Shown piece after piece: positions 3,421-5,824 of a stretch of 40,122 nucleotides of DNA. Within the stretch, counting starts at the first letter, position 1. Every line of letters begins with the position of its first letter. Source of the DNA: Nitrospirota bacterium. Lineage in GTDB: Bacteria; Nitrospirota; Thermodesulfovibrionia; UBA6902. The notes beneath the pieces are model-generated. The model saw nothing but the letters and a program-made list of their open reading frames with translations. It ran no database searches and was not told where the DNA came from. The DNA lies in the NCBI GenBank assembly GCA_016213945.1, contig JACQZF010000014.1, forward strand, positions 1 to 40,122, written 5' to 3'. The position numbers and the translations under genes are program-made.

Positions 3421-5649
3421 TTACTTAACGGTTACATACACTGTTTTGTACTCTGCCTGGTTGACATCGTAAATGCCGTTCATGTTTGTGTCAACCTTGA
3501 AATGGAAACTGTACGTACCTCTTAATAGCCTTGATGTGTTTAAAACCGTGACAACTGCTGTTTCAACAAGCGCCCCCTGATAATAATATGAAGTGCCTCT
3601 TTTCCATCTCCTAATTGACGAATCATAGTAGTTCCATGAATTATTGAACCCCATAAGCACCCACCAGTCAGCATTTACCCCGGAATAGCTTCCCGGGAGA
3701 AGGTCAATTGTTACCTTAACATTTTGACCTTTTGTCACTGTGACTGTCCCCTCTAATCCGTTAACCCTGATTTTTGGGACCGGTTTAACAACTTCTATCC
3801 CCGTGCCTGCAAGAGGGATATTAAATACAGGAGTTTGAGGATCGTTGGAAGGTATGGAGAGATTAGCATTCATTAAACCTGCCGATGCAGGCAGAAATTT
3901 CACATCGATCGTACAGCTTTCAGATGGTGAGAGCGTACGGCTGGAACAATTATCTTTGCCGTCTGCCTTGATGAAATTAGATGCGTGTGCGCCGTCGACG
4001 GTGATTGTTTTTATCGAGAGGGATTTTGTGCCCGCATTTGCAATCAATATTGTATGCGGCAAGGATGACATCTGGATCGGGCTTGAAAATTCAAGCTGGG
4101 TCGGTTTGCATGTTACCCAAACATTATCAAACGCCCAGAATCCATCCGCCGTATTGTTCAGATATCTAAATCTTGCTTTCGCGTCCCTGGCACCAGCAGT
4201 ATCACTTATATCAATTTCTTTAAATTCCGGCGCCGGATATCCGTCATCCGTTTGCATAAGCGCTTTGTTCATCCAGTTGGTTCCGCCATCACTGCTTGTA
4301 TCCACTTCGACATTGCCTGTATTCCGATGATACTGGTTGTCAAATGCGAGCGCGACAGCGCTGCATGAGGCAGCATTAAACGGCGCGGTTACAAGTTCAT
4401 CGTTGCCAGTCGCGGAACACGCTGAATCAATTATTGAATACGGCGCTACAAACGGATAATCTATGGTCCTGCTGCATGTATTGCTTGAATTCCATGCTCC
4501 CAGAGCTGACCAAGTATCTGGTATTCCTTTTGAGAAATCTTCGGTTAACAAAACCTTGCTCACCTTTATAGCAGGTAAACATCCCTCATCTACCTGCCCA
4601 TCACAGTTGTTGTCCCTTCCATCACAAACTTCAGCGGTAGGAGCATAAAGTTCACAGGTATCTATAAGTTTGCCGTTTGTGCATTGCTGAACTCCCGTTG
4701 ACGCACAAGCCCCTATCCCGCATGTTGTAGTCGCTGGAGTGATACCGTCATCCACCAGTCCGTTACAGTCGTTGTCTATCCCATCACAGGCTTCAACTGC
4801 CCCGGGTTTAATAGCTGAGCTATTATCATTGCAGTCAGTGCTGGTTGTTACATAACCGGCAGGCTTTGTACAGCTCTGTACTGAAAGCGAGGCATTGCCG
4901 TAACTATCCCCGTCGGCGTCTCTATAATATGTGTTTATTAGACCTTCGTCTATCTGGCCGTCGCAGTCGTTGTCTATCCCATCGCAGACTTCAGCGGTTA
5001 GCGAGCCGGGAGTGCAGGTATCAACAAGTTTGCCGTTTGTGCATTGCTGAACTCCCGTTGAGGCGCAAACCCCTGTCCCGCACATTGTGGGTGTTGGCAC
5101 ATACCCATCATCTGCAATCCCGGAGCAGTTTTCGTCAATACCGTTACAAACAGAATCATCTGAGTTTGGATGAATGGCAGGATTGTTGTCGTTGCAATCA
5201 TTGCCAGCTATTGTTTTGCACCCTGCAGGCTCGCAACCGGTTCCTGTGCATGAGCCGTCTATTGATGCGTCTACGTAACCATCGCCGTCATTATCGCAAT
5301 AGTAATTAATGGCATTTAAGGACTGTATTGTTTTGTTTGTTTCATTAGAATAAGCGCTTTCGTTGCGGTTTGTATCGTAAGCAGTCACTGAGAAATAATA
5401 AGTGAATCCTTCTGACAGATTCGCTACTGTATAGGTTGTAACATTACCAACGTCAATGCTCTGTGAATAATTACCGGATTGAGTGCTGAAATAAATTTTG
5501 TATCCTGTAAGGCTGGCAACAGGTGTTCCAGGCGGATCCCATGAGAGTATTACGTCCGCAGCAAATAAAGGGGATAAAAGAAGAAGATTGATTATTACTG
5601 CAAAAGTTATCCTTATATAAATAGATTTACATTTGAAATTGTTCAGCAT
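3421..5649 (-). CDS. Secreted FnIII / MopE-like Cys-Asp repeat / anchor-D protein
   Basis: A 742-residue secreted, multi-domain, probably cell-surface or matrix protein. In order: signal peptide (1-31, cut near FAA-DV); fibronectin type III (about 33-108); a MopE-like block (about 117-358) with repeated CDGIDNDCDGQIDEG-type motifs typical of putative metal-binding repeats, with two near-identical CASTGVQQCTNGKL copies; a beta-sandwich-like region with paired cysteines (about 365-510); an ASPM/SPD-2/Hydin-type 'choice-of-anchor D' domain (about 520-617); and a C-terminal beta-rich domain ending in a Lys. The start has a strong AGGAGG 9 bases upstream. A c-di-GMP-I riboswitch and a hairpin precede it, so expression is probably tied to the sessile/motile switch. 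The exact function is unknown; adhesion or matrix use is inferred. Confidence 0.85.
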   Translation of the reverse strand: MLNNFKCKSIYIRITFAVIINLLLLSPLFAADVILSWDPPGTPVASLTGYKIYFSTQSGNYSQSIDVGNVTTYTVANLSEGFTYYFSVTAYDTNRNESAYSNETNKTIQSLNAINYYCDNDGDGYVDASIDGSCTGTGCEPAGCKTIAGNDCNDNNPAIHPNSDDSVCNGIDENCSGIADDGYVPTPTMCGTGVCASTGVQQCTNGKLVDTCTPGSLTAEVCDGIDNDCDGQIDEGLINTYYRDADGDSYGNASLSVQSCTKPAGYVTTSTDCNDNSSAIKPGAVEACDGIDNDCNGLVDDGITPATTTCGIGACASTGVQQCTNGKLIDTCELYAPTAEVCDGRDNNCDGQVDEGCLPAIKVSKVLLTEDFSKGIPDTWSALGAWNSSNTCSRTIDYPFVAPYSIIDSACSATGNDELVTAPFNAASCSAVALAFDNQYHRNTGNVEVDTSSDGGTNWMNKALMQTDDGYPAPEFKEIDISDTAGARDAKARFRYLNNTADGFWAFDNVWVTCKPTQLEFSSPIQMSSLPHTILIANAGTKSLSIKTITVDGAHASNFIKADGKDNCSSRTLSPSESCTIDVKFLPASAGLMNANLSIPSNDPQTPVFNIPLAGTGIEVVKPVPKIRVNGLEGTVTVTKGQNVKVTIDLLPGSYSGVNADWWVLMGFNNSWNYYDSSIRRWKRGTSYYYQGALVETAVVTVLNTSRLLRGTYSFHFKVDTNMNGIYDVNQAEYKTVYVTVK
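4672..5087. repeat. Internal direct repeat in the MopE-like coding region
   Basis: About 60 bases at 4672-4731 recur with few changes at 5028-5087 (both begin AAGTTTGCCGTTTGTGCATT). They encode the repeated CASTGVQQCTNGKL.DTC module. The high DNA identity suggests recent duplication or gene conversion between modules. Confidence 0.75.
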
Positions 5650-5674
5650 GCTTGCTACCTCCTATATTTAAGCT

Positions 5675-5710
5675 AAGAAGCCTGTTTCCGATAGGCGAAA
5701 CAGGCTTCTT
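5675..5710 (-). terminator. Strong hairpin between riboswitch and start codon (expression platform)
   Basis: A perfect 14-bp stem (5675-5688 with 5697-5710) and an 8-base loop lie between the GEMM aptamer and the Shine-Dalgarno of the secreted protein. Only a weak U-rich tail follows (TTAGCTTAAATA), so it may act as a terminator or as a stability or translation element. Confidence 0.6.
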
Positions 5711-5730
5711 CCGAAAATAAACGCAGTGGC

Positions 5731-5824
5731 AAGCACTGTTTCTTCGACGACCCGGCTATCCCTTCAAAGGACCCGTGGCTTTGTGCCCCCTGGTTACCCA
5801 GGGTTTACCTTTTCGGAAACACTT
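5731..5824 (-). ncRNA. Cyclic di-GMP-I (GEMM) riboswitch
   Basis: On the minus strand the sequence shows the GEMM-I core: AAGGTAAACC, a CCCTGG-GTAA-CCAGGG hairpin with a GNRA tetraloop, GGCACAAAGCCACGGG, then a second hairpin ending in ATAGCCGGGTCGTCG. Flanking AAGTGTTTC and GAAACA..CTT can form the closing P1 stem. The base equivalent to Vc2 G20 appears to be G by my alignment, which favours c-di-GMP over cGAMP. The aptamer sits about 80-175 bases upstream of the secreted FnIII/MopE-like gene, with a strong hairpin between them. Confidence 0.88.

Follow-up and report, generated by a model that had tools for sequence, protein, structure and literature searches.

A GEMM-I riboswitch with uridine at pocket position 92 precedes genes for FnIII/MopE-repeat proteins in a Nitrospirota family and is predicted to switch them off

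A GEMM-I aptamer in the leader of a secreted protein gene

The window, that is, the whole stretch of 40,122 nucleotides analysed here (Nitrospirota bacterium, GCA_016213945.1, contig JACQZF010000014.1), carries on its minus strand a gene for a 742-aa secreted protein (P0001), with the following features in and before it:

5742-5820, minus strand: GEMM-I aptamer with helices P1, P2 and P3, from the RF01051, RF03167 and RF03168 scores and alignment with 90 family aptamers
5808-5820, minus strand: P strand, GUUUCCGA, 5′ side of P1, pairing with UCG/GAAAC of the A strand
5788-5803, minus strand: P2 hairpin with a GUAA (GNRA) tetraloop
within 5787-5777, minus strand: ACAAAGCC core
near 5755-5747, minus strand: GCCGGGUCG end
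5809, 5782 and 5747, minus strand: pocket bases G20, A47 and U92, placed by the family alignment
5731-5742, minus strand: A strand, GAAACAG[U]GCUU, forming either the 3′ side of P1 or one arm of the antiterminator, conserved class-wide
5697-5710, minus strand: T strand, AAGAAGCCUGUUUC, 5′ arm of the terminator and also the partner of A
5675-5688, minus strand: H strand, GAAACAGGCUUCUU, 3′ arm of a perfect 14-bp hairpin (loop 5696-5689)
5658-5663, minus strand: Shine-Dalgarno sequence AGGAGG
3421-5649, minus strand: P0001, ATG at 5649

The initial annotation had called a GEMM-I aptamer here and proposed RF01051 as a check. The covariance search of the window with this model gave 61.8 bits at 5820-5742 of the minus strand, far above the gathering score of 35, and the same aptamer was recovered with RF03167 (60.3 bits, E 6e-12) and RF03168 (61.8 bits). 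A chance match to GEMM-I is excluded, because the E-values lie between about 1e-11 and 1e-13 and 45 of 230 genomes of the class match a 33-base core pattern, compared to 0 for the reversed control. The covariance matches have the correct orientation, with the aptamer ending 93 nt before the start codon. The GNRA tetraloop, ACAAAGCC core, GCCGGGUCG end, 14-bp hairpin and ribosome site named in the annotation are all present on the minus strand, no more than about 5 bases from where they had been placed. The aptamer shares with Vc2 (GEMM-I, RF01051) its three helices, the GNRA tetraloop docking helix, G20 and A47, but has U in place of C92.

P0001 has a signal-peptide-like N-terminus, an FnIII domain (32-103), MopE repeats, a HYDIN/choice-of-anchor-D Ig-like domain (about 513-617) and a conserved beta-rich region at its C-terminus. 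The repeats, described earlier as MopE-like and metal-binding, were confirmed as PF11617 (97.4 bits, four stretches), but MopE is only the name of the Pfam repeat and does not imply copper binding. When the PDB was searched with the P0001 sequence, FnIII matches only and no MopE structure were returned; a structure prediction was set aside, as it rested on a two-sequence alignment and reached a mean pLDDT of 34.6. The protein is probably surface-active. The neighbouring genes encode a competence-type protein, a TPR protein and a MATE transporter, the latter upstream of the riboswitch on the opposite strand, and they offer no ground for assigning the riboswitch to another gene.

Conservation of the riboswitch and its gene

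GEMM-I aptamers (RF01051) were found in 29 of the 37 genomes examined of the Nitrospirota family related to SURF_66, to which the genome of the window is assigned by its matches, and 91 aptamers of this family were extracted, each with the ORF that follows it on its strand. A P0001-like protein follows the aptamer in 17 of the 91 cases, from at least 7 genera (BLASTP to P0001, E <= 1e-3; L023, which matches through the Ig-like domain alone, was left out). All ten homologues tested with Pfam carry FnIII, and six of them MopE repeats. The closest full-length match found in named genomes is a 724-aa protein of SURF_66 (Nitrospiraceae bacterium, QZIL01000097.1) at 4001, which has its own GEMM-I aptamer at 3821-3908, 180 nt upstream. 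This homologue was found independently, by protein search. Beyond this family, five others of the class (f2, f9, f13, f17 and f20) have FnIII-type proteins behind aptamers of this subtype. The earlier assignment of the aptamer to the leader of the FnIII/MopE gene was borne out by this link in the relatives, and riboswitch and gene are a genuine, conserved unit of a known kind.

The initial annotation did not know of the pairing as described, but it is not new in kind. Gbem_1796, Gbem_1798 and Gbem_1799 of Geobacter bemidjiensis were reported in 2010 as GEMM-regulated FnIII genes whose products are possibly on the outer surface (PMC2996986), and KN400_1971 is a gene for an FnIII protein under a GEMM riboswitch (PMC13194489). 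They resemble the window in having GEMM before a probably surface-exposed FnIII protein; neither MopE repeats nor the pocket base are mentioned in the portions of these two reports that we draw on. In addition, GbpA (PMC4744006) and Cap, a collagen adhesin of Bacillus (PMC4933901), are under the control of c-di-GMP-I riboswitches. These are secreted or surface adhesins, both induced by c-di-GMP, and the sign predicted for the window is the opposite. The new elements are the predicted OFF-type module common to the class and the natural U92 pocket kept in the lineage.

Other products are found behind the family's aptamers as well. Secreted multihaem CxxCH proteins with 4-15 motifs follow many of them (e.g. 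L020, L024, L124, L125, L147, L150 and L159), as in Geobacter. In L006, L011, L288, L291 and L294 the same subtype precedes a subtilase (PF00082 in L006) or a similar secreted protein, and the apparent lack of a terminator in these leaders suggests a translational version of the switch.

The expression platform

The leaders of the relatives share one layout: P (GUUUC), the aptamer, A (GAAACAG[N]GCUU), T (AAGCCUGUUUC) and H (GAAACAGGCUU). A and H are near-identical in sequence and P mimics T, and the alternative pairings are P with A (P1), A with T (antiterminator) and T with H (terminator). The A-T duplex of the window was calculated at -13.3 kcal/mol, with none of 300 shuffles as good, and in 21 of 25 leaders A-T complementarity exceeded that obtained after shuffling of the A strand (z < -1.5). 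In L034 the pairing is altered yet still complementary (GAAACAU/AUGUUUC), and the bulged base that separates GAAACAG from GCUU is variable while its flanks are invariant. A comparison in which the A and T strands of each leader were set against swapped ones gave no information, since the strand sequences are so conserved. When the window leader was folded through T, the A-T pairing was the minimum (-41.2 vs -34.2 kcal/mol with P1 enforced), and the full-length leader folded into P1 and the terminator (-65.8 kcal/mol), these being secondary-structure energies with ligand and kinetics outside the model.

Most relatives have a U run after H, whereas the U-tract of the window is interrupted and weak (CUUCUUAGCUU; UUCUUAGCUU), which is why a terminator scan of the window left the 14-bp hairpin unscored. 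A consensus scan for a promoter on the minus strand found none. The leaders of the relatives settle the predicted role of the hairpin as that of intrinsic terminator in a conserved P-A-T-H switch. The perfect 14-bp hairpin noted earlier is real and, as a terminator in this strand order, predicts repression rather than induction. Because the U-tract is interrupted in the window, control here may be partly translational.

An A strand common to P1 and the antiterminator, followed by a T-H terminator, was found in the window as in Cd1 of Clostridioides difficile, an OFF switch before flagellar genes with the same P-A-T-H order, in which the ligand-stabilised P1 permits the terminator (PMC9262584). 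The two differ in gene, phylum and pocket base. The strand order of the Geobacter pilM ON switch, on the other hand, differs from P-A-T-H (PMC9262584). Since the antiterminator joins the P1 strand of the aptamer to the terminator arm, ligand binding most likely switches the gene off; likewise, as the strand logic is that of Cd1 and not of pilM, repression by the ligand is predicted. Without ligand, the nascent RNA would form the A-T pairing, the terminator would be blocked and the FnIII/MopE gene would be transcribed. Binding of a guanine-containing cyclic dinucleotide would lock P1 and sequester A, upon which T and H would pair and transcription would stop. Production of the protein would thus be tied to low levels of the messenger.

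The binding pocket and its ligand

The contact residues of Vc2 are G20, A47 and C92 (PMC4744006). In the window, G20 and A47 are present and position 92 is U, a combination that matches no named type: not GAC (c-di-GMP), not AAC (cGAMP), and neither of the Rfam types GGC and UAU, whose names are, in our own reading, the bases at the three contact positions in the consensus lines. The best clan match, c-di-GMP-I-GGC (RF03167), was rejected because position 47 is A and not G, though 60.3 bits passes the gathering score of 59. c-di-GMP-I-UAU (RF03168) shares U92, but the window has G20 instead of U20 and its 61.8 bits are below the gathering score of 65.9. The cGAMP type GEMM-Ib has A20 where the window has G20. 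The aptamer thus belongs to the scaffold and clan only, and lies outside the c-di-GMP-selective pocket class.

Among the 91 aptamers of the family alignment, 78 are G/A/C, nine G/A/U, three A20 (one a truncated match) and one G/A/G. Besides the window, G/A/U occurs in L135 (genome G010) and in the g15 orthologues L026, L027, L138 and L143, each followed by an FnIII/MopE protein, so that five other genomes have retained U92 in their orthologous leaders. As the P3 loops and flanks of these orthologues have diverged, U92 is not merely recent and sequencing error does not explain it. It was seen in 6 of 17 FnIII/MopE-linked aptamers vs 3 of 74 others (Fisher P 0.001); this enrichment is not pressed, since P is only 0.05 once the four g15 orthologues are counted as one. 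Unrelated GEMM-I aptamers in the class also show G/A/U sporadically.

A uridine at position 92 can form a pair with adenine or a wobble pair with guanine, which leaves weaker sensing of c-di-GMP and sensing of cGAMP as the two live readings. Against c-di-GMP stands that U92 is unable to make the C92-Gbeta Watson-Crick pair. The name c-di-GMP-I, given initially, is correct for the scaffold, G20 and A47, but as a statement of ligand it is unproven because the C92 contact position is U. Vc2 variants with C92U have been prepared and crystallised (PDB 3MUR, 3UD3 and 3UD4; PMC10671752), and binding of c-di-GMP is weaker in the G20 and C92 mutants of Vc2 (PMC9049102). Our first guess for the ligand is c-di-GMP, with an affinity that is reduced by the replacement of C92 with U. 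Regulation by c-di-GMP is at home in this genome, as its other GEMM-I aptamer (G20/A47/C92; G000:C69:23627-23707, L005 7560-1905, minus strand) precedes TonB receptor, ABC substrate-binding and GGDEF-EAL genes, likely a c-di-GMP feedback operon. On balance, we lean towards a transcription-terminating GEMM-I OFF switch whose ligand is most likely c-di-GMP at reduced affinity, direction and ligand being predicted from the strand logic and the pocket bases.

cGAMP is a serious alternative ligand, because the genome encodes a GAF-GGDEF protein of Hypr type (NDRFGHLTGS...GGDEF; L190 1480-2481, G000:C85:13747-14742, minus strand), a candidate cGAMP synthase conserved in most family genomes. G20 would then read guanine and U92 would pair with adenine, so that 3′,3′-cGAMP would be sensed in the register opposite to the A20/C92 of Geobacter, still with an OFF outcome. 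The G20/A47/U92 pocket shared by the window with the MopE/FnIII-linked L026, L027, L135, L138 and L143 is in line with this, and in laboratory mutants position 92 sets the choice of base, G20A/C92U Vc2 binding c-di-AMP (PMC7288161, PMC9049102). The rarity of A20-type aptamers in the family points in the same direction. The Hypr protein has the signature serine, Ser348 being the reported hallmark of Hypr cGAMP synthases (PMC6456294), and 26 of its 30 best family matches carry GS. However, the serine signature is no proof of cGAMP synthesis, U92 is sporadic in unrelated aptamers of the class, and family genomes with C92 in their FnIII/MopE aptamers encode Hypr proteins as well. As the protein accompanies U92 and C92 alike, its presence does not discriminate, and cGAMP is possible but not decided. 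The Geobacter GEMM-Ib riboswitches have the same scaffold and a Hypr GGDEF in the genome, but A20/C92 instead of G20/U92, and they are ON switches (PMC6456294, PMC9262584). We regard the cGAMP variant as unlikely, if worth keeping in view, and it as somewhat less likely still that the natural 'GAU' pocket, conserved in a set of GEMM-I riboswitches of the lineage, is a further ligand subtype, reading cGAMP through a U92-adenine pair, with a widespread Nitrospirota Hypr GGDEF enzyme as its source, and repressing secreted FnIII/MopE proteins.

The weak U-tract of the window also bears on whether the switch terminates transcription in response to a ligand at all. Several leaders of the same subtype lack an obvious terminator and c-di-GMP induces the adhesins GbpA (PMC4744006) and Cap (PMC4933901), as would suit an ON or translational switch in which the ligand-stabilised P1 exposes the ribosome site without termination; the P-A-T-H strand order and the U runs of most relatives make this improbable. 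The leader could instead be a mostly fixed attenuator, its aptamer weakened or near ligand-blind, if U92 pairs with the A of the P strand (CGA/UCG) and P1 extends without ligand. This CGA/UCG complementarity exists in the window copy and in the g15 leaders, the minimum of the freely folded full-length leader has the extended P1, and the terminator U-tract is degraded compared to the relatives. Nevertheless, the core does not vary between distant genomes (33/33 identical, several families) while the P3 loops drift freely, which argues for ligand selection and renders a fixed attenuator very doubtful.

If U92 only lowers affinity, it shows the tuning of a picomolar aptamer; if it alters the ligand, the same scaffold would have a second natural means of reading cGAMP, and cGAMP signalling would extend to Nitrospirota. 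Either way, the FnIII/MopE secreted proteins are a direct, testable target of a cyclic dinucleotide in uncultured subsurface bacteria, with repression as the predicted sign.

Aptamers with A20, the cGAMP type, occur in the family and class in L151, L172, L300 and L314, the one in L300 preceding, as judged by eye, a PilZ-like protein. In genome G004, the aptamers of L118, L152 and L172 (G004:C123, G004:C228) lie right before very large ORFs starting MTKK..FIIEQLEQRLLFSADFEP; two of the three have G20 and one has A20.
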